Position numbers and translations under genes: made by a program | Notes under the pieces: model-generated | Seen by the model: the letters and a program-made list of their open reading frames with translations, nothing else | Database searches by the model: none | Told to the model about the DNA's origin: nothing | NCBI GenBank assembly: GCA_963920705.1 | Contig: CAWUCO010000268.1 | Span: 2,976,001 to 3,040,000 of the forward strand | Reading direction: 5' to 3' | Source: Odiellus spinosus | Taxonomy: Eukaryota > Arthropoda > Arachnida > Opiliones > Phalangiidae | DNA: 64,000 nucleotides | Part shown: positions 1 to 62,340 of the stretch, piece by piece | Numbering within the stretch: position 1 is the stretch's first letter | Layout of the letters: every line of letters begins with the position of its first letter

Positions 1-701
1 CGGATTTTTGAAAACTCTTGATTTTCAGATAGACCAATATTTGCTCTTTCGAGTGGTCTTAATTTTGTCTAAATCGCTTAAAAATCAAAGGTTTTGTGTC
101 CATTTGAATCCAATAATCTTGGATTTTTAAGTGTTTTTGCTTTATTTTAACCAATTTTATATTTGTCACAATTTTGCAATTTAGACAAAACCAAAGTCAT
201 TCGAAAGAGCAATTAATGGACAGTCTAAATAACAAGAGTTTTCAAAAATCCGTTGAAAAACAAGAAAAATATGGCCAATTCAAGAAATCATACAATATCA
301 AAATAGTCAAATTTCAGATTTTAAAAATTCGCTTTTTGATATTAGATGTTTTTTGAATTGTCCATATTTTCCATGTTTTTCAACGGATTTTCCAAAACTC
401 TTGATTTTTAGATAGACCAATATTTGCTCTTTCGAGTGGTCTTAATTTTGTCTAAATCGCTTAAAAATCAAAAGTTTTGTGTCCATTTTAATCCAATAAT
501 CTTGGATTTTTAAGTGTTTTTGCTTTATTTTAACCAATTTTATATTTGTCACAATTTTGCAATTTAGACAAAACCAAAGTCATTCGAAAGAGCAATTAAT
601 GGACAGTCTAAATAATAAGAGTTTTCAAAAATCCGTTGAAAAACAAGAAAAATATGGCCAATTCAAGAAACCATACAATATCAAAATAGTCAAATTTCAG
701 A
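1..701 (+). repeat. Plus-oriented satellite tract
   Basis: Bases 1-77 are the end of a right arm that is A'-like at first (CGGATTTTTGAAAACTC) and then B-like (GATTTTCAGATAGACC). This matches the orientation-change unit at 4770-5054, so a minus tract probably lies just left of the window. One complete plus unit follows (dyad 176-460). The tract ends in the switch unit 559-843, whose left arm is A and whose right arm is B near the loop, then A'. Its outer 108 bp on the two sides are identical inverted copies as far as I can read. Confidence 0.9.
176..558 (+). repeat. Reference satellite monomer (plus orientation): A arm, loop, B arm, spacer
   Basis: The A arm is 176-303, the loop 304-333, the B arm 334-460 and the spacer 461-558. 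Reverse-complemented B aligns to A over about 128 positions with about 24 differences and one gap by hand. Both arms share ATTTAGACAAAA, TCGAAAGAGCAA, CAAGAGTTTT, ATCCGTTGAAAAACA, AATATGG and AATATCAAAA. The arm-specific differences make useful tags: A has AACAAGAAAAATATGGCC and CAGTCTAAATAA, while B' has AACATGGAAAATATGGAC and GGTCTATCTGAAAATC. The spacer holds a second short dyad (AATCCAA...TTGGATT) and the pair CGCTTAAAAATC/GATTTTTAAGTG. A single-stranded monomer could fold into a stem of about 128 bp. A TTCGAA site occurs in A but not in B. Confidence 0.95.
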
Positions 702-3700
702 TTTTAAAAATTCGCTTTTTGATATTAGATGTTTTTTGAATTGGCCATATTTTTCTTGTTTTTCAACGGATTTTTGAAAACTCTTATTATTTAGACTGTC
801 CATTAATTGCTCTTTCGAATGACTTTGGTTTTGTCTAAATTGCAAAAGTGTGACAAATATAAAATTGGTTAAAATAAAGCAAAACCACTTAAAAATCCAA
901 GATTATTGGATTCAAATGGACACAAAACTTTTGATTTTTAAGCGATTTAGACTAAATAAAGACCACTCGAAAGAGCAAATATTGGTCTATCTAAAAAAAC
1001 AAAAGTTTGGGAAAATCCGTTGAAAAACATGGAAAATATAGCCAATTCAAAAAACACCTAATATCAAAAAGCGAATTTTTAAAATCTGAAATTTGACTAT
1101 TTTGATATTGTATGGTTTATTGAATTGGCCATATTTTTCTTGTTTTTCAACGGATTTTTGAAAACTCTTATTATTTAGACTGTCCATTAATTTCTCTTTC
1201 GAATGACTTTGGTTTTGTCTAAATTGCAAAATTGTGACAAATATAAAATTGGTTAAAATTAAGCAAAAACGCTTAAAAATCCAAGATTATTGGATTAAAA
1301 TCGACACAAAACTTTTGATTTTTAAGCGATTTAGACAAAATTAAGACCACTCGAAAGAGCAAATATTGGTCTATCTGAAAATCAAGAGTTTTGGAAAATC
1401 CGTTGAAAAACATGGAAAATATGGGCAATTCAAAAAACATCTAATATCAAAAAGCGAATATTTAAAATCTGAAATTTGACTATTTTGATATTGTATGATT
1501 TCTTGAATTGGCCATATTTTTCTTGTTTTTCAACGGATTTTTGAAAACTCTTGTTATTTAGACTGTCCATTAATTGCTCTTTCGAATGACTTTGGTTTTG
1601 TCTAAATTGCAAAATTGTGACAAATATAAAATTGGTTAAAATAAAGCAAAAACACTTAATAATCCAAGATTATTGGATTCAAATGGACACAAAACTTTTG
1701 ATTTTTAAGCGATTTAGACAAAATTAAGACTACTCGAAAGAGCAAATATTGGTCTATCTAAAAAACAAGAGTTTTGGAAAATCCGTTGAAAAACATGGAA
1801 AATTTGGACAATTCAAAAAACATCTAATATCAAAAAGCGAATTTTTAAAATCTGAAATTTGACTATTTTGATATTCTATGATTTCTTGAATTGGCCATAT
1901 TTTTCTTGTTTTTCAACGGATTTTTGAAAACTCTTGTTATTTAGACTGTCCATTAATTGCTCTTTCGAATGACTTTGGTTTTGTCTAAATTGCAAAATTG
2001 TGACAAATATAAAATTGGTTAAAATTAAGCAAAAACGCTTAAAAATCCAAGATTATTGGATTCAAATGGACACAAAACTTTTGATTTTTAAGCGATTTAG
2101 ACAAAATTAAGACCACTCGAAAGAGCAAATATTGGTCTATCTGAAAATCAAGAGTTTTGTAAAATCCGTTGAAAAACATGGAAAATATGGACAATTCAAA
2201 AAACATCTAATATCAAAAAGCGAATTTTTAAAATCTGAAATTTGACTATTTTGATATTGTATGATCTTGAATTGGCCATATTTTTCTTGTTTTTCAACGG
2301 ATTTTTGAAAACTCTTATTATTTAGACTGTCCATTAATTGCTCTTTCGAATGACTTTGGTTTTGTCTAAATTGCCAAGACGTGACAAATATAAAATTGGT
2401 TAAAATAAAGCAAAAACACTTAAAAGTCCAAGATTATTGGATTCAAATGGACACAACATTTTTGATTTTTAAGAGATTTAGACAAAATTAAGACCACACG
2501 AAAGACCAAATATTGGTCTATCTGAAAATCAAGAGTTTTGGAAAATCCGTTGAAAAACATGGAAAATATGGACAATTCAAAAAACGTCTAATATCAAAAA
2601 GCGAATTTTTAAAATCTGAAATTTGACTATTTTGATATTCTATGATTTCTTGAATTGACCATATTTTTCTTGTTTTTCAACGGATTTTTGAAAACTCTTA
2701 TTATTTAGACTGTCCATTAATTGCTCTTTCGAATGACTTTGGTTTTGTCTAAATTGCAAAATTGTGACAAATATAAAATTGGTTAAAATAAAGCAAAACA
2801 CTTAAAAATCCAAGATTATTGGATTAAAATGGACACAAAACTTTTGATTTTTAAGCGATTTAGACAAAATTAAGACTACTCGAAAGAGCAAATATTGGTA
2901 TATCTAAAAAACAATAGTTTTGGAAAATCCGTTGAAAAACATGGAAAATATAGCCAATTCAAAAAACATCTAAAATCAAAAAGCGAATTTTGAAAATCTG
3001 AAATTTGACTATTTTGATATTCTATGATTTCTTGAATTGGCCATATTTTTCTTGTTTTTCAACGGATTTTTGAAAACTCTTATTATTTAGACTGTCCATT
3101 AATTGCTCTTTCGAATGACTTTGGTTTTGTCTAAATTGCCAAGACGTGACAAATATAAAATTGGTTAAAATAAAGCAAAAACACTTAAAAGTCCAAGATT
3201 ATTGGATTCAAATGGACACAAAATTTTTGATTTTTAAGCGATTTAGACAAAATTAAGACCACACGAAAGACCAAATATTGGTCTATCTGAAAATCAAGAG
3301 TTTTGGAATATCCGTTGAAAAACATGGAAAATATGGACAATTCAAAAAACATCTAATTTAAAAAAGCGAATTTTTAAAATCTGAAATTTGACTATTTTGA
3401 TATTCTATGATTTCTTGAATTGGCCATATTTTTCTTGTTTTTCAACGGATTTTTGAAAACTCTTATTATTTAGACTGTCCATTAATTGCTCTTTCGAATG
3501 ACTTTGGTTTTGTCTAAATTGCAAAATTGTGACAAATATAAAATTGGTTAAAATAAAGCAAAAACACTTAAAAATCCAAGATTATTGGATTAAAATGGAC
3601 ACAAAACTTTTGATTTTTAAGCGATTTAGACAAAATTAAGACTACTCGAAAGAGCAAATATTGGTCTATCTAAAAAACAAGAGTTTTGGAAAATCCGTTG

Positions 3701-4912
3701 AAAAACATGGAAAATATAGCCAATTCAAAAAACATCTAATATCAAAAAGCGAATTTTTAAAATCTGAAATTTGACTATTTTGATATTCTATGATTTCTTG
3801 AATTGGCCATATTTTTCTTGTTTTTCAACGGATTTTTGAAAACTCTTATTATTTAGACTGTCCATTAATTGCTCTTTCGAATGACTTTGGTTTTGTCTAA
3901 ATTGCAAAATTGTGACAAATATAAAATTGGTTAAAATAAAGCAAAAACACTTAAAAATCCAAGATTATTGGATTAAAATGGACACAAAACTTTTGATTTT
4001 TAAGCGATTTAGACAAAATTAAGACTACTCGAAAGAGCAAATATTGGTCTATCTAAAAAACAAGAGTTTTGGAAAATCCGTTGAAAAACATGGAAAATAT
4101 AGCCAATTCAAAAAACATCTAATATCAAAAAGCGAATTTTGAAAATCTGAAATTTGACTATTTTGATATTCTATGATTTCTTGAATTGGCCATATTTTTC
4201 TTGTTTTTCAACGGATTTTTGAAAACTCTTATTATTTAGACTGTCCATTAATTGCTCTTTCGAATGACTTTGGTTTTGTCTAAATTGCAAAATTGTGACA
4301 AATATAAAATTGGTTAAAATAAAGCAAAAACACTTAAAAATCCAAGATTATTGGATTGAAATGGACACAAAACTTTTGATTTTTAAGCGATTTAGACAAA
4401 ATTAAGACCACTCGAAAGAGCAAATATTGGTCTATCTAAAAAACAAGAGTTTTGGAAAATCCGTTGAAAAACATGGAAAATATAGCCAATTCAAAAAACA
4501 TCTAATATCAAAAAGCGAATTTTTAAAATCTGAAATTTGACTATTTTGATATTCTATGATTTCTTGAATTGGCCATATTTTTCTTGTTTTTCAACGGATT
4601 TTTGAAAACTCTTATTATTTAGACTGTCCATTAATTGCTCTTTCGAATGACTTTGGTTTTGTCTAAATTGCAAAATTGTGACAAATATAAAATTGGTTAA
4701 AATTAAGCAAAAACGCTTAAAAATCCAAGATTATTGGATTCAAATGGACACAAAACTTTTGATTTTTAAGCGATTTAGTCAAAATTAAGACCACTCGAAA
4801 GAGCAAATATTGGTCTATCTGAAAATCAAGAGTTTTGTAAAATCCGTTGAAAAACATGGAAAATATGGACAATTCAAAAAACATCTAATATCAAAAAGCG
4901 AATTTTTAAAAT
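701..4912 (-). repeat. Minus-oriented satellite tract, 10 full units
   Basis: Ten complete minus units (B'-loop-A') lie between the switch units at 559-843 and 4770-5054. Units near 2373 and 3138 carry the GCCAAGACGTGAC spacer variant in place of GCAAAATTGTGAC. The terminal switch unit is B' on the left. On the right it is A' near the loop and changes to B at about 4990-5000, within the conserved AAAACTCTTG stretch. Confidence 0.93.
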
Positions 4913-14800: not shown

Positions 14801-15634
14801 CGTTGAAAAACATGGAAAATATAGCCAATTCAAAAAACATCTAATATCAAAAAGCGAATTTTTAAAATCTGAAATTTCACTATTTTGATATTCTATGATT
14901 TCTTGAATTGGCCATATTTTTCTTGTTTTTCAACGGATTTTTGAAAACTCTTATTATTTAGACTGTCCATTAATTGCTCTTTCGAATGACTTTGGTTTTG
15001 TCTAAATTGCAAAATTGTGACAAATATAAAATTGGTTAAAATAAAGCAAAAACACTTAAAAATCCAAGATTATTGGATTCAAATGGACACAAAACTTTTG
15101 ATTTTTAAGCGATTTAGACAAAATTAAGACTACTCGAAAGAGCAAATATTGGTCTATCTAAAAAACAAGAGTTTTGGAAAATCCGTTGAAAAACATGGAA
15201 AATATGGACAATTCAAAAAACATCTAATATCAAAAAGCGAATTTTGAAAATCTGAAATTTGACTATTTTGATATTGTATGGTTTCTCGAATTGGCCATAT
15301 TTTTCTTGTTTTTCAACGGATTTTTGAAAACTCTTGTTATTTAGACTGTCCATTAATTGCTCTTTCGAATGACTTTGGTTTTGTCTAAATTGCAAAATTG
15401 TGACAATTATAAAATTGGTTAAAATTAAGCAAAAACACTTAAAAATCCAAGATTATTGATTTCAAATGGACACAAAACTTTTGATTTTTAAGCGATTTAG
15501 ACAAAATTAAGACCACTCGAAAGAGCAAATATTGGTCTATCTGAAAATCAAGAGTTTTAGAAAATCCGTTGAAAAACATGGAAAATATGGCCAATTCAAG
15601 AAATCATACAATATCAAAATAGTCAAATTTCAGA
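11804..15634 (-). repeat. Minus-oriented satellite tract, 9 full units
   Basis: Nine minus units. The unit centred at about 13336 has an A-type tract inside its B' arm. The final switch unit 15492-15776 differs in kind from those before it: the exchange is in the left arm (B' outside, A inside from about 15595), and the loop and right arm are ordinary plus. With the right-arm change that opens the tract, this pair of ends is what a simple inversion between opposite arms would leave. Confidence 0.92.
13252..13303 (-). repeat. A-type tract inside a B' arm (conversion patch)
   Basis: In the left arm of the minus unit centred at about 13336, the sequence changes from B' (ending ATCTAAAAAACAAGAGTTTT) to A-type, with CAAAAATCC, ACAAGAAAAATATGGCC, for about 50 bp. 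It then returns to B'-like (CATCTAATATC) before the loop. Loop and right arm are ordinary minus. The pattern fits a short gene-conversion tract between arms. Confidence 0.75.
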
Positions 15635-16782
15635 TTTTAAAAATTCGCTTTTTGATATTAGATGTTTTTTGAATTGGCTATATTTTCCATGTTTTTCAAC
15701 GGATTTTCCAAAACTCTTGATTTTCAGATAGACCAATATTTACTCTTTCGAGTAGTCTTAATTTTGTCTAAATCGCTTAAAAATCAAAAGTTTTGTGTCC
15801 ATTTGAATCCAATAATCTTGGATTTTTAAGTGTTTTTACTTTATTTTAACCAATTTTATATTTGTCACGTCTTGGCAATTTAGACAAAACCAAAGTCATT
15901 CGAAAGAGCAATTAATGGACAGTCTAAATAACAAGAGTTTTCAAAAATCCGTTGAAAAACAAGAAAAATATTTCCAATTCGAGAAACCATACAATATCAA
16001 AATAGTCAAATTTCAGATTTTCAAAATTCGCTTTTTGATATTAGATGTTTTTTGAATTGGCTATATTTTCCATGTTTTTCAACGGATTTTCCAAAACTCT
16101 TGTTTTTTAGATAGACCAATATTTGCTCTTTCGAGTGGTCTTAATTTTGTCTAAATCGCTTAAAAATCAAAAGTTTTGTGTCCATTTGAATCCAATAATC
16201 TTGGATTTTTAAGTGTTTTTCCTTTATTTTAACCAATTTTATATTTGTCACAATTTTGCAATTTAGACAAAACCAAAGTCATTCGAAAGAGCAATTAATG
16301 GACAGTCTAAATAACAAGAGTTTTCAAAAATCCGTTGAAAAACAAGAAAAATATGGCCAATTCAAGAAACCATACAATATCAAAATAGTCAAATTTCAGA
16401 TTTTAAAAATTTGCTTTTTGATATTAGATGTTTTTTGAATTGGCTATATTTTCCATGTTTTTCAACGGATTTTCCAAAACTCTTGTTTTTTAGATAGACC
16501 AATATTTGCTCTTTCGAGTGGTCTTAATTTTGTCTAAATCGCTTAAAAATCAAAAGTTTTGTGTCCATTTGAATCCAATAATCTTGGATTTTTAAGTGTT
16601 TTTGCTTTATTTTAACCAATTTAATATTTGTCACAATTTTGCAATTTAGACAAAACCAAAGTCATTCGAAAGAGCAATTAATGGACAGTCTAAATAAGAG
16701 TTTTCAAAAATCCGTTGAAAAACAAGAAAAATATGGCCAATTCAAGAAATCATAGAATATCAAAATAGTCAAATTTCAGATT
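15634..16782 (+). repeat. Plus-oriented satellite tract, 2 full units
   Basis: Two plus units. The first has the CACGTCTTGGC spacer allele at about 15867 (the plus-strand form of GCCAAGACGTG) and CAATTCGAGAAACC in its A arm. The closing switch unit 16641-16922 (A left; B then A' right) has lost 3 bp around TCTAAATAAGAG. Confidence 0.92.
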
Positions 16783-17929
16783 TTAAAAATTCGCTTTTTG
16801 ATATTAGATGTTTTTTGAATTGGCCATATTTTTCTTGTTTTTCAACGGATTTTTGAAAACTCTTATTATTTAGACTGTCCATTAATTGCTCTTTCGAATG
16901 ACTTTGGTTTTGTCTAAATTGCCAAGACGTGACAAATATAAAATTGGTTAAAATAAAGCAAAAACACTTAAAAATCCAAGATTATTGGATTCAAATGGAC
17001 ACAAAACTTTTGATTTTTAAGCGATTTAGACAAAATTAAGACCACTCGAAAGAGCAAATATTGGTCTATCTAAAAAACAAGAGTTTTGGAAAATCCGTTG
17101 AAAAACATGGAAAATATGGACAATTCAAAAAACATTTAATATCAAAAAGCGAATTTTTAAAATCTGAAATTTGACTATTTTGATATTGTATGATTTCTTG
17201 AATTGGCCATATTTTTCTTGTTTTTCAACGGATTTTTGAAAATTCTTGTTATTTAGACTGTCCATTAATTGCTCTTTCGAATGACTTTGGTTTTGTCTAA
17301 ATTGCAAAATTGTGACAAATATAACATTGGTTAAAATAAAGCAAAAACACTTAAAAATCCAAGATTATTGGATTCAAATGGACACAAAACTTTTGATTTT
17401 TAAGCGATTTAGACAAAATTAAGACCACTCGAAAGAGCAAATATTGGTCTATCTAAAAAACAAGAGTTTTGGAAAATCCGTTGAAAAACATGGAAAATAT
17501 AGCCAATTCAAAAAACATCTAATATCAAAAAGCGAATTTTTAAAATCAGAAATTTGACTATTTTGATATTCTATGATTTCTTGAATTGGCCATATTTTTC
17601 TTGTTTTTCAACGGATTTTTGAAAACTCTTATTATTTAGACTGTCCATTAATTGCTCTTTCGAATGACTTTGGTTTTGTCTAAATTGCAAAATTGTGACA
17701 AATATAAAATTGGTTAAAATAAAGCAAAAACACTTAAAAATCCAAGATTATTGGATTCAAATGGACACAAAACTTTTGATTTTTAAGCGATTTAGACAAA
17801 ATTAAGACCACTCGAAAGAGCAAATATTGGTCTATCTGAAAATCAAGAGTTTTGGAAAATCCGTTGAAAAACAAGAAAAATATGGCCAATTCAAGAAATC
17901 ATACAATATCAAAATAGTCAAATTTCAGA
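16782..17929 (-). repeat. Minus-oriented satellite tract, 2 full units
   Basis: Two minus units. The change at the left is in a right arm and the change at the right (switch unit 17787-18071) is in a left arm. As with the tract at 11804-15634, this is the geometry expected for a simple inversion. Confidence 0.92.
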
Positions 17930-19078
17930 TTTTAAGAATTCGCTTTTTGATATTAGATGTTTTTTGAATTGTCCATATTTTCCATGTTTTTCAACGGATT
18001 TTCCAAAACTCTTGATTTTCAGATAGACCAATATTTGCTCTTTCGAGTAGTCTTAATTTTGTCTAAATCGCTTAAAAATCAAAAGTTTTGTGTCCATTTT
18101 AATCCAATAATCTTGGATTTTTAAGTGTTTTTGCTTTATTTTAACCAATTTTATATTTGTCACAATTTTGCAATTTAGACAAAACCAAAGTCATTCGAAA
18201 GAGCAATTAATGGACAGTCTAAATAACAAGAGTTTTCAAAAATCCGTTGAAAAACAAGAAAAATATGGCCAATTCAAGAAATCATACAATATCAAAATAG
18301 TCAAATTTCAGATTTTAAGAATTCGCTTTTTGATATTAGATGTTTTTTGAATTGTCCATATTTTCCATGTTTTTCAACGGATTTTCCAAAACTCTTGATT
18401 TTCAGATAGACCAATATTTGCTCTTTCGAGTAGTCTTAATTTTGTCTAAATCGCTTAAAAATCAAAAGTTTTGTGTCCATTTTAATCCAATAATCTTGGA
18501 TTTTTAAGTGTTTTTGCTTTATTTTAACCAATTTTATATTTGTCACAATTTTGCAATTTAGACAAAACCAAAGTCATTCGAAAGAGCAATTAATGGACAG
18601 TCTAAATAACAAGAGTTTTCAAAAATCCGTTGAAAAACAAGAAAAATATGGCCAATTCAAGAAATCATACAATATCAAAATAGTCAAATTTCAGATTTTA
18701 AAAATTCGCTTTTTGATATTAGATGTTTTTTGAATTGTCCATATTTTCCATGTTTTTCAACGGATTTTCCAAAACTCTTGTTTTTTAGATAGAACAATAT
18801 TTGCTCTTTCGAGTGGTCTTAATTTTGTCTAAATCGCTTAAAAATCAAAAGTTTTGTGTCCATTTTAATCCAATAATCTTGGATTTTTAAGTGTTTTTGC
18901 TTAATTTTAACCAATTTTATATTTGTCACAATTTTGCAATTTAGACAAAACCAAAGTCATTCGAAAGAGCAATTAATGGACAGTCTAAATAACAAGAGTT
19001 TTCAAAAATCCGTTGAAAAACAAGAAAAATATGGCCAATTCAAGAAATCATACAATATCAAAATAGTCAAATTTCAGA
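17929..19078 (+). repeat. Plus-oriented satellite tract, 2 full units
   Basis: Two plus units. The closing switch unit of the previous tract and the first full unit share a TTTTAAGAATTCGC variant (near 17932 and 18316), which creates an EcoRI site. The same variant recurs at about 30188. The tract ends in switch unit 18936-19220, where the right arm changes from B to A' at about 19150. Confidence 0.92.
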
Positions 19079-22000
19079 TTTTAAAAATTCGCTTTTTGAT
19101 ATTAGATGTTTTTTGAATTGTCCATATTTTCCATGTTTTTCAACGGATTTTTGAAAACTCTTGTTATTTAGACTGTCCATTAATTGCTCTTTCGAATGAC
19201 TTTGGTTTTGTCTAAATTGCAAAATTGTGACAAATATAAAATTGGTTAAAATAAAGCAAAAACACTTAAAAATCCAAGATTATTGGATTCAAATGGACAC
19301 AAAACTTTTGATTTTTAAGCGATATAGACAAAATTAAGACCACTCGAAAGAGCAAATATTGGTCTATCTAAAAAACAAGAGTTTTGGAAAATCCGTTGAA
19401 AAACATGGAAAAAATGGACAATTCAAAAAGCATCTAATATCAAAAAGCGAATTTTTAAAATCTGAATTTTGACTATTTTGATATTGTATGATTTCTTGAA
19501 TTGGCCATATTTTTCTTGTTTTTCAACGGATTTTTGAAAACTCTTGTTATTTAGACTGTCCATTAATTGCTCTTTCGAATGACTTTGGTTTTGTCTAAAT
19601 TGCAAAATTGTGACAAATATAAAATTGGTTAAAATAAAGCAAAAACACTTAAAAATCCAAGATTATTGGATTCAAATGGACACAAAACTTTTGATTTTTA
19701 AGCGATTTAGACAAAATTAAGACTACTCGAAAGAGCAAATATTGGTCTATCTAAAAAACAAGAGTTTTGGAAAATCCGTTGAAAAACATGGAAAATATAG
19801 CCAATTCAAAAAGCATCTAATATCAAAAAGCGAATTTTGAAAATCTGAAATTTGACTATTTTGATATTCTATGATTTCTTGAATTGGCCATATTTTTCTT
19901 GTTTTTCAACGGATTTTTGAAAACTCTTGTTATTTAGACTGTCCATTAATTGCTCTTTCGAATGACTTTGGTTTTGTCTAAATTGCCAAGACGTGACAAA
20001 TATAAAATTGGTTAAAATAAAGCAAAAACACTTAAAAATCCAAGATTATTGGATTCAAATGGACACAAAACTTTTGATTTTTAAGCGATTTAGACAAAAT
20101 TAAGACCACTCGAAAGAGCAAATATTGGTCTATCTAAACAACAAGAGTTTTGGAAAATCCGTTGAAAAACATGGAAAATATGGACAATTCAAAAAGCATC
20201 TAATATCAAAAAGCGAATTTTTAAAATCTGAAATTTGACTATTTTGATATTCTATGATTTCTTGAATTGGCCATATTTTTCTTGTTTTTCAACGGATTTT
20301 TGAAAATTCTTGTTATTTAGACTGTCCATTAATTGCTCTTTCGAATGACTTTGGTTTTGTCTAAATTGCAAAATTGTGACAAATATAAAATTGGTTAAAA
20401 TAAAGCAAAAACACTTAAAAATCCAAGATTATTGGATTCAAATGGACACAAAACTTTTGATTTTTAAGCGATATAGACAAAATTAAGACCACTCGAAAGA
20501 GCAAATATTGGTCTATCTAAAAAACAAGAGTTTTGGAAAATCCGTTGAAAAACATGGAAAAAATGGACAATTCAAAAAGCATCTAATATCAAAAAGCGAA
20601 TTTTTAAAATCTGAATTTTGACTATTTTGATATTGTATGATTTCTTGAATTGGCCATATTTTTCTTGTTTTTCAACGGATTTTTGAAAACTCTTGTTATT
20701 TAGACTGTCCATTAATTGCTCTTTCGAATGACTTTGGTTTTGTCTAAATTGCAAAATTGTGACAAATATAAAATTGGTTAAAATAAAGCAAAAACACTTA
20801 AAAATCCAAGATTATTGGATTCAAATGGACACAAAACTTTTGATTTTTAAGCGATTTAGACAAAATTAAGACTACTCGAAAGAGCAAATATTGGTCTATC
20901 TAAAAAACAAGAGTTTTGGAAAATCCGTTGAAAAACATGGAAAATATAGCCAATTCAAAAAGCATCTAATATCAAAAAGCGAATTTTGAAAATTTGAAAT
21001 TTGACTATTTTGATATTCTATGATTTCTTGAATTGGCCATATTTTTCTTGTTTTTCAACGGATTTTTGAAAACTCTTGTTATTTAGACTGTCCATTAATT
21101 GCTCTTTCGAATGACTTTGGTTTTGTCTAAATTGCCAAGACGTGACAAATATAAAATTGGTTAAAATAAAGCAAAAACACTTAAAAATCCAAGATTATTG
21201 GATTCAAATGGACACAAAACTTTTGATTTTTAAGCGATTTATACAAAATTAAGACTACTCGAAAGAGCAAATATTGGTCTATCTAAAAAACAAGAGTTTT
21301 GGAAAATCCGTTGAAAAACATGGAAAATATGGACAATTCAAAAAACATCTAATATCAAAAAGCGAATTTTTAAAATCTGAAATTTGACTATTTTGATAAT
21401 CTATGATTTCTTGAATTGGCCATATTTTTCTTGTTTTTCAACGGATTTTTGAAAACTCTTGTTATTTAGACTGTCCATTAATTGCTCTTTCGAATGACTT
21501 TGGTTTTGTCTAAATTGCAAAATTGTGACAAATATAAAATTGGTTAAAATAAAGCAAAAACACTTAAAAATCCAAGATTATTGGATTAAAATGGACACAA
21601 AACTTTTGATTTTTAAGCGATTTAGACAAAATTAAGACTACTCAAAAGAGCAAATATTGGTCTATCTAAAAAACAAGAGTTTTGGAAAATCCGTTGAAAA
21701 ACATGGAAAATATAGCCAATTCAAAAAACATCTAATATCAAAAAGCGAATTTTGAAAATCTGAAATTTGACTATTTTGATATTCTATGATTTCTTGAATT
21801 GGCCATATTTTTCTTGTTTTTCAACGGATTTTTGAAAACTCTTATTATTTAGACTGTCCATTAATTGCTCTTTCGAATGACTTTGGTTTTGTCTAAATTG
21901 CCAAGACGTGACAAATATAAAATTGGTTAAAATAAAGCAAAAACACTTAAAAATCCAAGATTATTGGATTCAAATGAACACAAAACTTTTGATTTTTAAG

Positions 22001-23291
22001 CGATTTAGACAAAATTAAGACCACTCGAAAGAGCAAATATTGGTCTATCTAAACAACAAGAGTTTTGGAAAATCCGTTGAAAAACATGGAAAATATGGAC
22101 AATTCAAAAAGCATCTAATATCAAAAAGCGAATTTTTAAAATCTGAAATTTGACTATTTTGATATTCTATGATTTCTTGAATTGGCCATATTTTTCTTGT
22201 TTTTCAACGGATTTTTGAAAATTCTTGTTATTTAGACTGTCCATTAATTGCTCTTTCGAATGACTTTGGTTTTGTCTAAATTGCAAAATTGTGACAAATA
22301 TAACATTGGTTAAAATAAAGCAAAAACACTTAAAAATCCAAGATTATTGGATTCAAATGGACACAAAACTTTTGATTTTTAAGCGATTTAGACAAAATTA
22401 AGACCACTCGAAAGAGCAAATATTGGTCTATCTAAAAAACAAGAGTTTTGGAAAATCCGTTGAAAAACATGGAAAATATAGCCAATTCAAAAAACATCTA
22501 ATATCAAAAAGCGAATTTTTAAAATCTGAAATTTGACTATTTTGATATTCTATGATTTCTTGAATTGGCCATATTTTTCTTGTTTTTCAACGGATTTTTG
22601 AAAACTCTTATTATTTAGACTGTCCATTAATTGCTCTTTCGAATGACTTTGGTTTTGTCTAAATTGCAAAATTGTGACAAATATAAAATTGGTTAAAATA
22701 AAGCAAAAACACTTAAAAATCCAAGATTATTGGATTCAAATGGACACAAAACTTTTGATTTTTAAGCGATTTAGACAAAATTAAGACTACTCGAAAGAGC
22801 AAATATTGGTCTATCTAAAAAACAAGAGTTTTGGAAAATCCGTTGAAAAACATGGAAAATATGGACAATTCAAAAAACATCTAATATCAAAAAGCGAATT
22901 TTGAAAATCTGAAATTTGACTATTTTGATATTGTATGGTTTCTCGAATTGGCCATATTTTTCTTGTTTTTCAACGGATTTTTGAAAACTCTTGTTATTTA
23001 GACTGTCCATTAATTGCTCTTTCGAATGACTTTGGTTTTGTCTAAATTGCAAAATTGTGACAAATATAAAATTGGTTAAAATAAAGCAAAAACACTTAAA
23101 AATCCAAGATTATTGGATTAAAATGGACACAAAACTTTTGATTTTTAAGCGATTTAGACAAAATTAAGACTACTCGAAAGAGCAAATATTGGTCTATCTG
23201 AAAATCAAGAGTTTTGGAAAATCCGTTGAAAAACATGGAAAATATGGACAATTCAAAAAACATCTAATATCAAAAAGCGAATTCTTAAAAT
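19078..23291 (-). repeat. Minus-oriented satellite tract, 10 full units
   Basis: Ten minus units. A 3-unit displacement is visible: the GAATTTTGACTATTTTG variant occurs at about 19465 and 20614, 1149 bp apart, with matching neighbours. The GCCAAGACGTGAC allele occurs near 19986, 21134 and 21900. The tract ends in switch unit 23149-23433 (B' left; A' then B right). Confidence 0.92.
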
Positions 23292-24440
23292 CTGAAATTT
23301 GACTATTTTGATATTGTATGATTTCTTGAATTGGCCTTATTTTTCTTGTTTTTCAACGGATTTTCCAAAACTCTTGATTTTCAGATAGACCAATATTTGC
23401 TCTTTCGAGTGGTCTTAATTTTGTCTAAATCGCTTAAAAATCAAAAGTTTTGTGTCCATTTGAATCCAATAATCTTGGATTTTTAAGTGTTTTTGCTTTA
23501 TTTTAACCAATTTTATATTTGTCACAATTTTGCAATTTAGACAAAACCAAAGTCATTCGAAAGAGCAATTAATGGACAGTCTAAATAATAAGAGTTTTCA
23601 AAAATCCGTTGAAAAACAAGAAAAATATGGCCAATTCAAGAAATCATAGAATATCAAAATAGTCAAATTTCTGATTTTAAAAATTCGCTTTTTGATATTA
23701 GATGTTTTTTGAATTGGCTATATTTTCCATGTTTTTCAACGGATTTTCCAAAACTCTTGTTTTTTAGATAGACCAATATTTGCTCTTTCGAGTGGTCTTA
23801 ATTTTGTCTAAATCGCTTAAAAATCGAAAGTTTTGTGTCCATTTGAATCCAATAATCTTGGATTTTTAAGTGTTTTTGCTTTATTTTAACCAATGTTATA
23901 TTTGTCACAATTTTGCAATTTAGACAAAACCAAAGTCATTCGAAAGAGCAATTAATGGACAGTCTAAATAACAAGAATTTTCAAAAATCCGTTGAAAAAC
24001 AAGAAAAATATGGCCAATTCAAGAAATCATACAATATCAAAATAGTCAAATTTCAGATTTTAAAAATTCGCTTTTTGATATTAGATGTTTTTTGAATTGT
24101 CCATATTTTCCATGTTTTTCAACGGATTTTCCAAAACTCTTGTTTTTTAGATAGACCAATATTTGCTCTTTCGAGTGGTCTTAATTTTGTCTAAATCGCT
24201 TAAAAATCAAAAGTTTTGTGTCCATTTGAATCCAATAATCTTGGATTTTTAAGTGTTTTTGCTTTATTTTAACCAATTTTATATTTGTCACGTCTTGGCA
24301 ATTTAGACAAAACCAAAGTCATTCGAAAGAGCAATTAATGGACAGTCTAAATAATAAGAGTTTTCAAAAATCCGTTGAAAAACAAGAAAAATATGGCCAA
24401 TTCAAAAAACATCTAATATCAAAAAGCGAATTTTTAAAAT
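23291..24440 (+). repeat. Plus-oriented satellite tract, 2 full units
   Basis: Two plus units. The second carries two variants (CAATGTTATATTTG at about 23892 and CAAGAATTTTC at about 23971) that also occur in minus-oriented units elsewhere. The closing switch unit 24298-24582 changes in the left arm: A outside, B' next to the loop, A' on the right. Confidence 0.92.
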
Positions 24441-27400
24441 CTGAAATTTGACTATTTTGATATTGTATGATTTCTTGAATTGGCCATATTTTTCTTGTTT
24501 TTCAACGGATTTTTGAAAACTCTTATTATTTAGACTGTCCATTAATTGCTCTTTCGAATGACTTTGGTTTTGTCTAAATTGCAAAATTGTGACAAATATA
24601 AAATTGGTTAAAATTAAGCAAAAACACTTAAAAATCCAAGATTATTGGATTCAAATGGACACAAAACTTTTGATTTTTAAGCGATTTAGACAAAATTAAG
24701 ACCACTCGAAAGAGCAAATATTGGTCTATCTTAAAAACAAGAGTTTTGGAAAATCCGTTGAAAACATGGAAAATATGGACAATTCAAAAAGCATCTAATA
24801 TCAAAAAGCGAATTTTTAAAATCTGAAATTTGACTATTTTGATATTGTATGATTTCTTGAATTGGCCATATTTTTCTTGTTTTTCAACGGATTTTTGAAA
24901 ACTCTTGTTATTTAGACTGTCCATTAATTGCTCTTTCGAATGACTTTGGTTTTGTCTAAATTGCAAAATTGTGACAAATATAAAATTGGTTAAAATTAAG
25001 CAAAAACACTTAAAAATCCAAGATTATTGGATTCAAATGGACACAAAACTTTTGATTTTTAAGCGATTTAGACAAAATTAAGACCACTCGAAAGAGCAAA
25101 TATTGATCTATCTTAAAAACAAAAGTTTTGGAAAATCCGTTGAAAAACATGGAAAATATGGACAATTCAAAAAACATCTAATATCAAAAAGCGAATTTTT
25201 AAAATCTGAAATTTGACTATTTTGATATTGTATGATTTCTTGAATTGGCCATATTTTTCTTGTTTTTCAACGGATTTTTGAAAACTCTTGTTATTTAGAT
25301 TGTCCATTAATTGCTCTTTCGAATGACTTTGGTTTTGTCTAAATTGCAAAATTGTGACAAATATAAAATTGGTTAAAATTAAGCAAAAACACTTAAAAAT
25401 CCAAGATTATTGGATTCAAATGGACACAAAACTTTTGATTTTTAAGCGATTTAGACAAAATTAAGACCACTCGAAAGAGCAAATATTGGTCTATCTTAAA
25501 AACAAGAGTTTTGGAAAATCCGTTGAAAAACATGGAAAATATGGACAATTCAAAAAACATCTAATATCAAAAAGCGAATTTTTAAAATCTGAAATTTGAC
25601 TATTTTGATATTGTATGATTTCTTGAATTGGCCATATTTTTCTTGTTTTTCAACGGATTTTTGAAAACTCTTGTTATTTAGACTGTCCATTAATTGCTCT
25701 TTCGAATGACTTTGGTTTTGTCTAAATTGCAAAATTGTGACAAATATAAAATTGGTTAAAATTAAGCAAAAACACTTAAAAATCCAAGATTATTGGATTC
25801 AAATGGACACAAAACTTTTGATTTTTAAGCGATTTAGACAAAATTAAGACCACTCGAAAGAGCAAATATTGGTCTATCTTAAAAACAAGAGTTTTGGAAA
25901 ATCCGTTGAAAAACATGGAAAATATGGACAATTCAAAAAACATCTAATATCAAAAAGCGAATTTTTAAAATCTGAAATTTGACTATTTTGATATTGTATG
26001 ATTTCTTGAATTGGCCATATTTTTCTTGTTTTTCAACGGATTTTTGAAAACTCTTGTTATTTAGACTGTCCATTAATTGCTCTTTCGAATGACTTTGGTT
26101 TTGTCTAAATTGCAAAATTGTGACAAATATAAAATTGGTTAAAATTAAGCAAAAACACTTAAAAATCCAAGATTATTGGATTCAAATGGACACAAAACTT
26201 TTGATTTTTAAGTGATTTAGACAAAATTAAGACCACTCGAAAGAGAAAATATTGGTCTATCTAAAAAACAAGAGTTTTGGAAAATCCGTTGAAAAACATG
26301 GAAAATATGGACAATTCAAAAAGCATCTAATATCAAAAAGCGAATTTTTAAAATCTGAAATTTGACTATTTTGATATTGTATGATTTCTTGAATTGGCCA
26401 TATTTTTCTTGTTTTTCAACGGATTTTTGAAAACTCTTGTTATTTAGACTGTCCATTAATTGCTCTTTCGAATGACTTTGGTTTTGTCTAAATTGCAAAA
26501 TTGTGACAAATATAAAATTGGTTAAAATTAAGCAAAAACACTTAAAAATCCAAGATTATTGGATTCAAATGGACACAAAACTTTTGATTTTTAAGCGATT
26601 TAGACAAAATTAAGACCACTCGAAAGAGCAAATATTGGTCTATCTTAAAAACAAGAGTTTTGGAAAATCCGTTGAAAAACATGGAAAATATGGACAATTC
26701 AAAAAACATCTAATATCAAAAAGCGAATTTTTAAAATCTGAAATTTGACTATTTTGATATTGTATGATTTCTTGAATTGGCCATATTTTTCTTGTTTTTC
26801 AACGGATTTTTGAAAATTCTTGTTATTTAGACTGTCCATTAATTGCTCTTTCGAATGACTTTGGTTTTGTCTAAATTGCAAAATTGTGACAAATATAAAA
26901 TTGGTTAAAATTAAGCAAAAACACTTAAAAATCCAAGATTATTGGATTCAAATGGACACAAAACTTTTGATTTTTAAGTGATTTAGACAAAATTAAGACC
27001 ACTCGAAAGAGAAAATATTGGTCTATCTAAAAAACAAGAGTTTTGGAAAATCCGTTGAAAAACATGGAAAATATGGACAATTCAAAAAGCATCTAATATC
27101 AAAAAGCGAATTTTTAAAATCTGAAATTTGACTATTTTGATATTGTATGATTTCTTGAATTGGCCATATTTTTCTTGTTTTTCAACGGATTTTTGAAAAC
27201 TCTTGTTATTTAGACTGTCCATTAATTGCTCTTTCGAATGACTTTGGTTTTGTCTAAATTGCAAAATTGTGACAAATATAAAATTGGTTAAAATTAAGCA
27301 AAAACACTTAAAAATCCAAGATTATTGGATTCAAATGGACACAAAACTTTTGATTTTTAAGCGATTTAGACAAAATTAAGACCACTCGAAAGAGCAAATA

Positions 27401-32865: not shown

Positions 32866-33179
32866 CTGAAATTTGACTATTTTGATATTGTATGATTTCT
32901 TGAATTGGCCATATTTTTCTTGTTTTTCAACGGATTTTTGAAAACTCTTATTATTTAGACTGTCCATTAATTGCTCTTTCGAATGACTTTGGTTTTGTCT
33001 AAATTGCAAAATTGTGACAAATATAAAATTGGTTAAAATTAAGCAAAAACACTTAAAAATCCAAGATTATTGGATTCAAATGGACACAAAACTTTTGATT
33101 TTTAAGCGATTTAGACAAAATTAAGACCACTCGAAAGAGCAAATATTGGTCTATCTTAAAAACAAGAGTTTTGGAAAAT

Positions 33180-36168: not shown

Positions 36169-36453
36169 GCGATTTAGACAAAATTAAGACCACTCGAAAG
36201 AGCAAATATTGGTCTATCTGAAAATCAAGAGTTTTGGAAAATCCGTTGAAAAACATGGAAAATATGGCCAATTCAAAAAATCATACAATATCAAAATAGT
36301 CAAATTTCAGATTTTAAAAATTCGCTTTTTGATATTAGATGTTTTTTGAATTGGCCATATTTTTCTTGTTTTTCAACGGATTTTTGAAAACTCTTATTAT
36401 TTAGACTGTCCATTAATTGCTCTTTCGAATGACTTTGGTTTTGTCTAAATTGC
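36169..36453 (-). repeat. Satellite unit with only its core inverted
   Basis: The flanks are minus (B' outside at the left, A' outside at the right). The core from about 36267 to 36355 reads in plus orientation: GGCCAATTCAAAAAATCAT on the left, a plus loop, and GATATTAGATG on the right. This is the product expected if the two arms of one monomer recombined with each other and inverted the loop. Confidence 0.85.
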
Positions 36454-53541: not shown

Positions 53542-55072
53542 ATTTTAAAATTCGCTTTTTGATATTAGATGTTTTTTGAATTGGCTATATTTTCCATGTT
53601 TTTCAAGGATTTTCCAAAACTCTTGATTTTCAGATAGACCAATTTTTGCTCTTTCGAGTGGTCTTAATATTGTCTAAATCGCTTAAAAATCAAAAGTTTT
53701 GTGTCCATTTTAATCCAATAATCTTGGATTTTTAAGCGTTTTTGCTTAATTTTAACCAATTTTATATTTGTCACAATTTTGCAATTTAGACAAAACCAAA
53801 GTCATTCGAAAGAGCAAATATTGGTCTATCTGAAAATCAAGAGTTTTGGAAAATCCGTTGAAAAACAAGAAAAATATGGCCAATTCAAGAAATCATACAA
53901 TATCAAAATAGTCAAATTTCAGATTTTAAAAATTCGCTTTTTGATATTAGATGTTTTTTGAATTGGCTATATTTTCCATGTTTTTCAACGGATTTTCCAA
54001 AACTCTTGATTTTCAGATAGACCAATATTTGCTCTTTCGAGTGGTCTTAATTTTGTCTAAATCGCTTAAAAATCAAAAGTTTTGTGTCCATTTTAATCCA
54101 ATAATCTTGGATTTTTAAGCGTTTTTGCTTAATTTTAACCAATTTTATATTTGTCACAATTTTGCAATTTAGACAAAACCAAAGTCATTCGAAAGAGCAA
54201 TTAATGGACAGTCTAAATAATAAGAGTTTTCAAAAATCCGTTGAAAAACAAGAAAAATATGGCCAATTCAAGAAATCATAGAATATCAAAATAGTCAAAT
54301 TTCAGATTTTAAAAATTCGCTTTTTGATATTAGATGTTTTTTGAATTGGCTATATTTTCCATGTTTTTCAACGGATTTTCCAAAACTCTTGTGATTTAGA
54401 TAGACCAATATTTGCTATTTCGAGTGGTCTTAATTTTGTCTAAATCGCTTAAAAATCAAAAGTTTTGTGTCCATTTGAATCCAATAATCTTGGATTTTTA
54501 AGCGTTTTTGCTTAATTTTAACCAATTTTATATTGGTCACAATTTTGCAATTTAGACAAAACCAAAGTCATTCGAAAGAGCAATTAATGGACAGTCTAAA
54601 TAACAAGAGTTTTCAAAAATTCGTTGAAAAACAAGAAAAATATGGCCAATTCAAGAAATCATACAATATCAAAATAGTCAAATTTCAGATTTTAAAAATT
54701 CGCTTTTTGATATTAGATGTTTTTTGAATTGTCCATATTTTCCATGTTTTTCAACGGATTTTCCAAAACTCTTGATTTTCAGATAGACCAATATTTGCTC
54801 TTTCGAGTGGTCTTAATTTTGTCTAAATCGCTTAAAAATCTAAAGTTTTGTGTCCATTTGAATCCAACAATCTTGGAATATTAAACGTTTTTGCTTAATT
54901 TTAACCAATTTTATATTTGTCACAATTTTGCAATTTAGACAAAACCAAAGTCATTCGAAAGAGCAATTAATGGACAGTCTAAATAATAAGAGTTTTCAAA
55001 AATCCGTTGAAAAACAAGAAAAATATGGCCAATTCAAAAAACATCTAATATCAAAAAGCGAATTTTTAAAAT
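53542..55072 (+). repeat. Plus-oriented satellite tract, 3 full units
   Basis: Three plus units open a distinct terminal subfamily. The unit centred at about 53923 has a B'-type tract inside its A arm. The closing switch unit 54930-55214 changes in the left arm (A outside, B' next to the loop). Confidence 0.92.
53815..53860 (+). repeat. B'-type tract inside an A arm (conversion patch)
   Basis: The A arm beginning at 53781 keeps A-type CCAAAGTCATTCG, switches to B'-type ATATTGGTCTATCTGAAAAT and TTTTGGAAAATCC for about 45 bp, then returns to A-type AACAAGAAAAATATGGCC. The orientation of loop and right arm is unchanged. This is the reciprocal kind of patch to the one at 13252. Confidence 0.75.
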
Positions 55073-55455
55073 CTGAAATTTGACTATTTTGATATTGTAT
55101 GGTTTCTTGAATTGGCCATATTTTTCTTGTTTTTCAATGGATTTTTGAAAACTCTTATTATTTAGACTGTCCATTAATTGCTCTTTCGAATGACTTTGGT
55201 TTTGTCTAAATTGCAAAATTGTGACAAATATAAAATTGGTTAAAATAAAGCAAAAACACTTAAAAATCCAAGATTATTGGATTCAAATGGACACAAAACT
55301 TTTGATTTTTAAGCGATTTAGACAAAATTAAGACCACTCGAAAGAGCAAATAATGGTCTATCTGCAAATCAAGAGTTTTGGAAAATCCGTTGAAAAACAA
55401 GAAAAATATGGCCAATTCAAGAAATCATACAATATCAAAATAGTCAAATTTCAGA
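55072..55455 (-). repeat. Minus interlude between adjacent switch units
   Basis: Adjacent switch units 54930-55214 and 55313-55597 enclose a single minus-oriented spacer. The second is marked by AAATAATGGTCTATCTGC at about 55348. The whole arrangement is copied at 58377-59044, an offset of 3447 bp. Confidence 0.92.
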
Positions 55456-58400: not shown

Positions 58401-58519
58401 TTCGAAAGAGCAATTAATGGACAGTCTAAATAATAAGAGTTTTCAAAAATCCGTTGAAAAACAAGAAAAATATGGCCAATTCAAAAAACATCTAATATCA
58501 AAAAGCGAATTTTTAAAAT
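55455..58519 (+). repeat. Plus-oriented satellite tract, 7 units, 3-unit higher-order pattern
   Basis: Seven full plus units. Units whose A arm reads CTAAAAAACAAGAGTTTTGG, the B' form, occur at about 55744, 56893 and 58042, spaced 1149 bp or three monomers. The variant GAATAAAATAATCTAGG occurs at about 56008 and 57157 with the same spacing. TATATTGGTCAC and TTTGCTATTTCGAG mark this subfamily. The tract ends in switch unit 58377-58661. Confidence 0.93.
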
Positions 58520-58902
58520 CTGAAATTTGACTATTTTGATATTGTATGGTTTCTTGAATTGGCCATATTTTTCTTGTTTTTCAACGGATTTTTGAAAACT
58601 CTTATTATTTAGACTGTCCATTAATTGCTCTTTCGAATGACTTTGGTTTTGTCTAAATTGCAAAATTGTGACAAATATAAAATTGGTTAAAATTAAGCAA
58701 AAACACTTAAAAATCCAAGATTATTGGATTCAAATGGACACAAAACTTTTGATTTTTAAGCGATTTAGACAAAATTAAGACCACTCGAAAGAGCAAATAA
58801 TGGTCTATCTGCAAATCAAGAGTTTTGGAAAATCCGTTGAAAAACAAGAAAAATATGGCCAATTCAAGAAATCATACAATATCAAAATAGTCAAATTTCA
58901 GA
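58519..58902 (-). repeat. Minus interlude between adjacent switch units (second copy)
   Basis: Switch units 58377-58661 and 58760-59044 flank one minus-oriented spacer. The AAATAATGGTCTATCTGC tag recurs at about 58795, 3447 bp after its copy in the 55-kb interlude, so the whole two-switch cassette was duplicated as a block. Confidence 0.92.
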
Positions 58903-61900
58903 TTTTAAAAATTCGCTTTTTGATATTAGATGTTTTTTGAATTGGCTATATTTACCATGTTTTTCAACGGATTTTCCAAACCTCTTGTTTTTTAGATAGA
59001 CCAATATTTGCTCTTTCGAGTAGTCTTAATTTTGTCTAAATCGCTTAAAAATCAAAAGTTTTGTGTCCATTTGAATCCAATAATCTTGGATTTTTAAGTG
59101 TTTTTGCTTTATTTTAACCAATTTTATATTTGTCACAATTTTGAAATTTAGACAAAACCAAAGTCATTCGAAAGAGCAATTAATGGACAGTCTAAATAAC
59201 AAGAGTTTTCAAAAATCCGTTGAAAAACAAGAAAAATATGGCCAATTCAAGAAATCATACAATATCAAAATAGTCAAATTTCAGATTTTAAAAATTCGCT
59301 TTTTGATATTAGATGTTTTTTGAATTGGCTATATTTTCCATGTTTTTCAACGGATTTTCCAAAACTCTTGTTTTTTAGATAGACCAATATTTGCTATTTC
59401 GAGTGGTCTTAATTTTGTCTAAATCGCTTAAAAATCAAAAGTTTTGTGTCCATTTGAATCCAATAATCTTGGATTTTTAAGCGTTTTTGCTTAATTTTAA
59501 CCAATTTTATATTGGTCACAATTTTGCAATTTAGACAAAACCAAAGTCATTCGAAAGAGCAATTAATGGACAGTCTAAATAACAAGAGTTTTCAAAAATC
59601 CGTTGAAAAACAAGAAAAATATGGCCAATTCAAGAAATCATACAATATCAAAATAGTCAAATTTCAGATTTTAAAAATTCGCTTTTTGATATTAGATGTT
59701 TTTTGAATTGGCTATATTTTCCATGTTTTTCAACGGATTTTCCAAAACTCTTGTTTTTTAGATAGACCAATATTTGCTATTTCGAGTGGTCTTAATTTTG
59801 TCTAAATCGCTTAAAAATCAAAAGTTTTGTGTCCATTTGAATCCAATAATCTTGGATTTTTAAGAGTTTTTGCTTAATTTTAACCAATTTTATATTGGTC
59901 ACAATTTTGCAATTTAGACAAAACCAAAGTCATTCGAAAGAGCAATTAATGGACAGTCTAAATAACAAGAGTTTTCAAAAATCCGTTGAAAAACAAGAAA
60001 AATATGGCCAATTCAAGAAATCATACAATATCAAAATAGTCAAATTTCAGATTTTAAAAATTCGCTTTTTGATATTAGATGTTTTATGAATTGGCTATAT
60101 TTTCAATGTTTTTCAACGGATTTTCCAAAACTCTTGTTTTTTAGATAGACCAATATTTGCTATTTCGAGTGGTCTTAATTTTGTCTAAATCGCTTAAAAA
60201 TCAAAAGTTTTGTGTCCATTTGAATCCAATAATCTTGGATTTTTAAGTGTTTTTGCTTAATTTTAACCAATTTTATATTGGTCACAATTTTGCAATTTAG
60301 ACAAAACCAAAGTCATTCGAAAGAGCAATTAATGGACAGTCTAAAAAACAAGAGTTTTGGAAAATCCGTTGAAAAACAAGAAAAATATGGCCAATTCAAG
60401 AAATCATACAATATCAAAATAGTCAAATTTCAGATTTTAAAAATTCGCTTTTTGATATTAGATGTTTTTTGAATTGGCTATATTTTCCATGTTTTTCAAC
60501 GGATTTTCCAAAACTCTTGATTTTCAGATAGACCAATATTTGCTCTTTCGAGTGGTCTTAATTTTGTCTAAATCGCTTAACAATCAAAAGTTTTGTGTCC
60601 ATTTGAATCCAATAATCTTGGATTTTTAAGTGTTTTTGCTTTATTTTAACCAATTTTATATTTGTCACAATTTTGCAATTTAGACAAAACCAAAGTCATT
60701 CGAAAGAGCAATTAATGGACAGTCTAAATAACAAGAGTTTTCAAAAATCCGTTGAAAAACAAGAAAAATATGGCCAATTCAAGAAATCATACAATATCAA
60801 AATAGTCAAATTTCAGATTTTAAAAATTCGCTTTTTGATATTAGATGTTTTTTGAATTGGCTATATTTTCCATGTTTTTCAACGGATTTTCCAAAACTCT
60901 TGTTTTTTAGATAGACCAATATTTGCTCTTTCGAGTAGTCTTAATTTTGTCTAAATCGCTTAAAAATCAAAAGTTTTGTGTCCATTTGAATCCAATAATC
61001 TTGGATTTTTAAGTGTTTTTGCTTTATTTTAACCAATTTTATATTTGTCACAATTTTGCAATTTAGACAAAACCAAAGTCATTCGAAAGAGCAATTAATG
61101 GACAGTCTAAATAACAAGAGTTTTCAAAAATCCGTTGAAAAACAAGAAAAATATGGCCAATTCAAGAAATCATACAATATCAAAATAGTCAAATTTCAGA
61201 TTTTAAAAATTCGCTTTTTGATATTAGATGTTTTTTGAATTGGCTATATTTTCCATGTTTTTCAACGGATTTTCCAAAACTCTTGTTTTTTAGATAGACC
61301 AATATTTGCTATTTCGAGTGGTCTTAATTTTGTCTAAATCGCTTAAAAATCAAAAGTTTTGTGTCCATTTGAATCCAATAATCTTGGATTTTTAAGCGTT
61401 TTTGCTTAATTTTAACCAATTTTATATTGGTCACAATTTTGCAATTTAGACAAAACCAAAGTCATTCGAAAGAGCAATTAATGGACAGTCTAAATAACAA
61501 GAGTTTTCAAAAATCCGTTGAAAAACAAGAAAAATATGGCCAATTCAAGAAATCATACAATATCAAAATAGTCAAATTTCAGATTTTAAAAATTCGCTTT
61601 TTGATATTAGATGTTTTATGAATTGGCTATATTTTCAATGTTTTTCAACGGATTTTCCAAAACTCTTGTTTTTTAGATAGACCAATATTTGCTATTTCGA
61701 GTGGTCTTAATTTTGTCTAAATCGCTTAAAAATCAAAAGTTTTGTGTCCATTTGAATCCAATAATCTTGGATTTTTAAGTGTTTTTGCTTAATTTTAACC
61801 AATTTTATATTGGTCACAATTTTGCAATTTAGACAAAACCAAAGTCATTCGAAAGAGCAATTAATGGACAGTCTAAAAAACAAGAGTTTTGGAAAATCCG

Positions 61901-62335
61901 TTGAAAAACAAGAAAAATATGGCCAATTCAAGAAATCATACAATATCAAAATAGTCAAATTTCAGATTTTAAAAATTCGCTTTTTGATATTAGATGTTTT
62001 TTGAATTGGCTATATTTTCCATGTTTTTCAACGGATTTTCCAAAACTCTTGTTTTTTAGATAGACCAATATTTGCTATTTCGAGTGGTCTTAATTTTGTC
62101 TAAATCGCTTAAAAATCAAAAGTTTTGTGTCCATTTGAATCCAATAATCTTGGATTTTTAAGTGTTTTTGCTTAATTTTAACTAATTTTATATTGGTCAC
62201 AATTTTGCAATTTAGACAAAACCAAAGTCATTCGAAAGAGCAATTAATGGACAGTCTAAAAAACAAGAGTTTTGGAAAATCCGTTGAAAAACAAGAAAAA
62301 TATGGCCAATTCAAGAAATCATACAATATCAAAAT
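58902..62335 (+). repeat. Terminal plus-oriented tract, 8 full units and one truncated
   Basis: Eight full plus units of the terminal subfamily followed by a truncated unit starting at 62207. A 4-unit displacement is visible: GATGTTTTATGAATTGG and ATTTTCAATG occur near 60085/60104 and again near 61617/61636, 1532 bp apart. The final two units both carry the B'-type CTAAAAAACAAGAG tract in the A arm. The last unit stops after AATATCAAAAT, at the stem-loop boundary. Confidence 0.95.
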
Positions 62336-62340
62336 TATAC
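62321..62340. other. Right edge of the satellite array
   Basis: The truncated last unit has its A arm from 62207, so its dyad centre would fall at about 62349. Identity to the satellite stops at 62335, immediately after the terminal stem decamer AATATCAAAA plus one base. The fold-back element begins at the same place, and the first few bases (62332-62335) fit both. Satellite sequence does not resume on the far side of that element. Confidence 0.9.

Follow-up and report, generated by a model that had tools for sequence, protein, structure and literature searches.

In-register orientation changes in a 383-bp harvestman satellite, probably spread as copies of a few old founder junctions

The window analysed here is a stretch of 64,000 nucleotides from the harvestman Odiellus spinosus (C261:2976001-3040000 of assembly G000, which comprises 443 Mb in 286 contigs). 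A COX1 of the assembly, 446 residues of which were read on a 16-kb contig, agrees with this placement: its protein shows 98-99% identity to entries of Phalangioidea, Phalangiidae and Oligolophus, and 93% to the next entry from Opiliones. It holds an AT-rich satellite array (1..62335, mixed orientation, ~27% GC) made up of ~162 monomers of 383 bp. Unit orientation was called with a 15-mer strand map and with a two-strand jumping profile model, and a wider survey covered 264 kb of contig C261 around the window, of which 217.5 kb (82%) is satellite. The original prediction ended the array at 62335. What begins at 62336 is a 17.4-kb insertion, downstream of which the satellite resumes, and the array also extends upstream of base 1.

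The monomer is an imperfect dyad, with two imperfect inverted arms around two cores. An ungapped comparison of the consensus with its own reverse complement gives 62% identity in one rotation (next best 40%; mean 30%). Spacing between units is exactly 383 bp in 130 of the 161 window spacings, and the lattice drifts by -15 bp over 162 units, which is the net drift that had been predicted over 62 kb. The longest stretches of arm-to-arm identity are two tracts of 18 bp, T1 (consensus 379-13) and T2 (17-34); these lengths count alleles present at 10% or more, and on the strict consensus the tracts are 9 and 8 bp. Junctions are named RR where the orientation changes from - to + (tail-to-tail) and LL where it changes from + to - (head-to-head). 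Both the strand map and the profile model recovered the 22 predicted orientation changes. The profile model called 26 strand switches in the window satellite, the additional four being the two ends of each of two tiny internal tracts. Junctions and tiny tracts are listed below at their positions under the profile model, together with two blocks of one unit and an inverted twin.

736: RR junction, tract T2
4996: LL junction, type 152/368 (tract T3)
7245: RR junction, T2
8442: LL junction, type 152/368
9541: RR junction, T2
11123: LL junction, type 152/368
11839: RR junction, T2
15517..19220, + strand: first arm of the inverted twin; reverse-complemented 22000-25705 matches it at 97.7% identity
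15587: LL junction, type 21/116 (T2)
16815: RR junction, T2, within the inverted twin
17872: LL junction, T1, within the inverted twin
19148: RR junction, type 0/139 (T1), unique in type within the 72 flips of the 264 kb
22000..25705, - strand: second arm of the inverted twin, partner of 15517..19220
23347: LL junction, T1, mirror form
24403: RR junction, T2, mirror form
28978: LL junction, T1
31296: RR junction, T2
32425: LL junction, T1
32828: RR junction, T2
36278..36346: dyad core alone inverted or converted, 68 bp
53485: LL junction, T1
53808..53866: tract of opposite-arm sequence, 58 bp (arm-to-arm conversion)
55035..55398, + strand: block of one unit (RR at 55035, LL at 55398), near copy of 58482-58845
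58482..58845, + strand: block of one unit (RR at 58482, LL at 58845), whose near copy lies 9 units (3,447 bp) upstream

All 26 window switches are in register under the profile model, joining paired positions p and q with p + q = 137 or 139 modulo 383. A modulo-383 check placed 22 of 22 centres within 1 bp of the dyad centre, in agreement with the prediction that they lie on one lattice. Across the 264 kb there are 72 flips, 36 RR and 36 LL with the ends of tiny events included, and 71 of them keep register, which rules out random inversion out of phase. The sole flip out of register is at C261:3121486 (295/247, sum 159), ~145 kb downstream of the window start. Switch points sit in the arms beside the dyad core, and the orientation blocks therefore come in half-units; the half-unit count is odd in 31 of the 69 internal blocks of the 264 kb. 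Most blocks in the 217.5 kb of satellite are a few units long, several span at least 25 units, and inverted subarrays of kilobase size are present.

Switches within or at the edge of T1 or T2 make up 62 of the 72 flips, a count that includes copied junctions and has no probability attached, and the two tracts occupy 36 of 191 arm positions. This bears out the prediction that register is kept by a near-palindromic monomer whose changes of orientation fall inside its arms. Because the breakpoints sit in tracts of homology, a dedicated recombinase would be unnecessary. Within the window, T2 is used by 10 of 11 RR junctions and T1 by 7 of 11 LL junctions; over the 264 kb, T2 is used by 34 of 36 RR junctions, at one breakpoint, and T1 by 24 of 36 LL junctions. 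Under a simple reciprocal inversion, LL and RR junctions would be expected in one and the same tract, and the skew thus points to founder junctions. General arm-to-arm conversion was also considered, and no claim for it is kept: the minor allele equals the partner arm in 486 of 630, but two sites contribute 399 of these, and with the two removed the proportion is 87 of 222 (0.39), compared with 0.21-0.38 in eight shifted controls.

Diversity is low in the sequence that adjoins the RR junctions. Over 50 bp on either side it is 0.008-0.009 (33 junctions), compared with 0.022-0.025 in 375 ordinary units, and none of 500 random samples was as low; past 50 bp it returns to normal or rises above it. 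Every one of the 33 RR junctions has A at site 154 (222 of 375 ordinary units), and GAC at 215-217, ~110 bp out from the breakpoint, is present in 16 of 33 (13 of 375). Further RR-enriched alleles, each found in 5-9 junctions, reach 283 bp, and we take the enriched alleles out to this distance to mark young local copies. All 24 junctions of the main LL class have G at site 94 (202 of 375 ordinary units). Whole-unit distances are 0.031 and 0.039 for the two large RR types and 0.037 and 0.024 for the two large LL types, similar to the 0.031-0.032 of ordinary units by the same measure. Thus, we infer that the founders are old. Single linkage at 1.2% whole-unit distance places the window's 22 junctions in 11 clusters (4 RR, 7 LL). 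Judged from these sequence patterns, most of the flips are probably copies of a few old founder junctions and not 22 independent inversions.

Young runs (d of 0.012 or less) of at least four units number 33 direct and 0 inverted, and those of at least three units 74 direct and 5 inverted; some of the counted runs overlap and are not independent events. As a control, an artificial inverted run was placed in the distance matrix, and the search recovered it. The direct and inverted counts converge only near background divergence (449 versus 382 at 0.025). Several direct runs include junctions, and one 8-unit run holds four. Thus, the turn-round units multiply mainly by direct duplication. Recent fold-back copying was rejected as the main source of flips, given that no inverted run of four or more units, and five of three units, were found at this threshold; the inverted twin is real.

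The two mirror forms of RR junction, with 21 and 13 members, share the same rare haplotypes, and some inversion is therefore later than the founders. The window units near 17-18 kb differ from those of the inverted twin at 23-24 kb by 0.26% over three units, within the 3.7 kb of twin sequence listed above, and for two further inverted runs of three units, located downstream of the window, the differences are 0.17% and 0.26%. The description of the array as a self-inverting satellite consequently stands in part: mirror forms and the inverted twin support some inversion after the founders, and the founder-like junctions and direct duplications speak against many separate, continuing flips.

The satellite is not confined to this locus. 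A 32-mer of the normal arm has 35,503 matches in the genome, with 219 in the 264 kb, where 563 units were called. Extrapolated from that one region, the assembly would hold roughly 91,000 monomers, or 7.9% of its sequence. The satellite is spread widely over C6 and C261. An exact 30-mer of the RR-T2 junction has 1,552 + 1,650 = 3,202 matches genome-wide (control, 0), and it lies at a flip in 30 of 33 matches in the 264 kb and in 35 of 43 over all checked matches. The RR-T2 recombinant arm was also observed in non-flipping monomers (5 matches; G000:C66:335001-345000, loci L004 and L007), and such unflipped arms look like products of arm-to-arm conversion.

Five 10-kb samples from other contigs contain 0, 8, 0, 1 and 19 flips. 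In the sample from C6 (G000:C6:2578001-2588000) the pattern recurs after 8 units, and two internal inversions of the core alone, of 127 and 129 bp, are present. An RR-T1 pattern has 3,338 + 3,750 matches (7,088), its specificity in the 264 kb being judged from one match. On C6 these matches lie ~383 bp apart in one direction, which suggests tandem half-inverted monomers, and 7,088 is therefore not a flip count. The LL-T1 pattern was dropped for genome counts, as a flip was found at only 19 of its 28 matches in the 264 kb.

Repeats of the same family also occur in a dispersed, foldback-like element. Among the matches listed, short palindromes with a constant centre of 541-542 bp account for seven of the eight isolated 32-mer places that precede C6. 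The eighth, on C5 (G000:C5:1816162-1877420), is a row of eight same-strand matches whose spacing is irregular and in part 2.7 kb; it resembles neither the arrays nor the palindromic element. The 32-bp central junction of the palindromic element was found at 14 sites, 7 per strand, on nine contigs, and 13 are identical. In the single copy read (L039; G000:C1:33020501-33024500), the inverted arms are 98.6% identical over 849 bp and hold the 383-bp repeat plus an outer repeat of ~150 bp. The central junction joins -23 to +255 (sum 278), lies off the 383-bp lattice and is absent from the 72 flips. The alleles A216 and C217, which are enriched beside RR junctions, are present in all five repeats of this copy, and G at 215 is absent from them. 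These repeats differ by 4.6% from the array consensus, compared with 1.9% for the array itself. The element yielded no outer ends, target duplications or transposase source, the 4-kb stretch read stopping short of the outer ends. The element may have given rise to the satellite or may have captured it.

Several observations weigh against the spread of a few founders as a full account. The LL junctions have one clearly fixed site, and the diversity beside them is not significantly reduced (equally low in 78 of 500 samples). LL classes 143/377 and 185/335 have C at site 94, so that separate origins are needed for them. Three of the five inverted 3-unit runs differ by less than 0.3%, which makes some inversion recent. 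For 85% of monomers the nearest relative faces the same way (50% expected), so local mixing between orientations is incomplete, although mean monomer distances, which speak for the founder account, are alike within and between orientations: 0.0287 (++), 0.0295 (--) and 0.0296 (+-). At eleven other loci the RR-T2 30-mer lies at a flip in only 5 of 10 matches. As half of these outside matches are unflipped, the 3,202 matches count the recombinant arm, which is widely distributed, and not flips, and the number of flips is uncertain. The C6 sample, with its 19 flips, has an RR type of its own (T1), and the presence of other junction types on other contigs means that junctions arose independently more than once.

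With these points taken into account, we consider it likely that rare arm-to-arm exchange made the turn-round monomers, which later spread as ordinary units. Rare recombination or template switching between opposite arms at T1 and T2 would have produced LL and RR turn-round monomers, and such an exchange would join matching arm positions, so that the 383-bp register would survive. The turn-round monomers would then have acted as ordinary units, undergoing direct unequal duplication and movement between arrays, presumably without selection. Occasional exchange between opposite-facing blocks would have inverted some of them.

The dyad monomer may be an intrinsic inversion module, in which paired 18-bp inverted tracts flanking the core would establish an equilibrium of orientations and turn-rounds would be maintained and multiply as selfish variants; a foldback transposon with the same repeat may have seeded them and exchanged repeats with them. 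We regard this reading as possible, although unlikely. Arms acting as inversion hotspots, with independent and continual flips and a preference for T1 and T2, would fit the concentration of flips in the two longest identity tracts, the other junction types on other contigs, the recent inverted twins and mirror forms, and the recombinant arms that occur without a flip. This continual inversion is nevertheless improbable in view of the low diversity beside RR junctions, the absence of inverted cases among the longer young runs and the use of different tracts by LL and RR on C261. Hairpin reads would make junction flanks mirror copies. Opposite-facing units 2-20 units apart differ by 0.031-0.033, compared with the 0.0296 average, unlike fold-back reads, and the same junction types recur on other contigs with common alleles. 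From these neighbour distances and the run counts, an artefact of assembly or reads (hairpin reads, chimeras) appears unlikely as a source of the flips, and we think it extremely so.

It is doubtful, and quite improbable in our view, that the array grew from a palindromic foldback-like transposon with 383-bp repeats in its arms, which would have supplied both orientations from the start. One central junction at 14 dispersed sites in equal numbers per orientation, the near-identical inverted arms of L039 with 383-bp units inside, and the RR-enriched A216 and C217 in all of its repeats would agree with such an origin, but the element junction is off the lattice and not among the flips, and the repeats of the one copy read lack G at 215 and are more distant from the array consensus than the array is. 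There is a precedent in the Tetris foldback transposon and TIR-220 satellite of Drosophila virilis, where, in the excerpted account (PMC4079207), a foldback-type dispersed element carries repeats of longer satellite arrays, as here. Origin of the satellite from the element is reported there, unlike the harvestman, where descent may run either way. Selection might also maintain macro-dyads if hairpin or cruciform turn-rounds aid (peri)centromere function, an idea put forward for Tribolium. The predicted DNA folding energy averages -169 kcal/mol for 34 RR and -167 for 34 LL junctions, versus -87 in ordinary monomers (n = 40) and -27 in base-shuffled ones (n = 20), and conserved inversion sites are described in part of PMC13081366 for an unrelated arthropod as well. 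Ordinary founder spread accounts for low diversity within 50 bp, however, and two of the five 10-kb samples taken on other contigs consist wholly of satellite and lack flips; such selection seems very improbable.

A 2026 paper (PMC13081366), in the portion drawn on here, states that satellite macro-dyads are documented exclusively in Tribolium and leaves open whether the conserved inversion sites reflect function or spread. The macro-dyad satellites of Tribolium madens, T. freemani and T. castaneum described in that portion are the closest precedent. Common to both systems are high abundance, orientation changes inside arrays, inverted subunits within one monomer type, and few predominant inversion-site types in thousands of copies (in Tribolium, 2,044 of INV_1a and 3,486 of INV_1b). 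The harvestman array has the orientation reversal within arrays and the conserved, highly repeated inversion-site types by which macro-dyads are recognised, and the one copy read as L039 has the long inverted arms with internal tandem repeats of a foldback element. The likeness to Tribolium is one of architecture, not of sequence, and the hosts are unrelated. Unlike Tribolium as portrayed in those sections, the harvestman flips lie nearly all on the monomer lattice, with the switch tied to 18-bp arm identities. One inversion-site subunit of T. madens is 10.7% or 23.5% diverged, whereas the harvestman junctions are recombinant arms. Monomer-scale dyads like that of the harvestman, compared by description from the same portion of the paper, are the 1061-bp satellite of Trichogramma brevicornis with ~470-bp inverted segments and that of T. 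brassicae, 385 bp long, in which the inverted repeats measure 80 bp; no array flips are mentioned there for either.

New relative to Tribolium are the lattice-preserving monomer dyad, the homology tracts and the diversity evidence for founder spread. No published report of this array was found in the open-licence literature, which does not prove that none exists. A macro-dyad-type architecture is now present in an arachnid, where the satellite is linked to a foldback-like mobile element. Junction diversity offers a way to separate function from spread, and low diversity confined to ~50 bp is what copied old founder junctions would predict without any function. The genome is also one in which satellite inversion, direct duplication and exchange can be timed against one another.

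Mobile elements of 8.4, 17.4 and 20.7 kb are inserted within the array, and one or two frames of each were scanned for protein domains. A smaller element, which is not satellite, lies at the edge of the 17.4-kb insertion.

C261 2953523-2961887: LTR element, 8.4 kb, 1,421-bp LTRs 99.5% alike; integrase domains
C261 3038336-3055732: PIF1-helicase element, 17.4 kb; PIF1-like helicase with a ubiquitin hydrolase domain
C261 3072050-3092746: Polinton-like element, 20.7 kb, 153-bp inverted ends 96% alike; integrase and family-B polymerase
62336..63137 of the window, + strand: 802-bp element with 233-bp inverted ends (96%)

At least 32 copies of the 802-bp element are 99-100% identical over its length (40 of 858 candidates were scored), and it has probably been active recently. 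Elsewhere in the assembly, several places on G000:C17 give partial COX1 matches with extra stops, which are likely nuclear copies of mitochondrial DNA.

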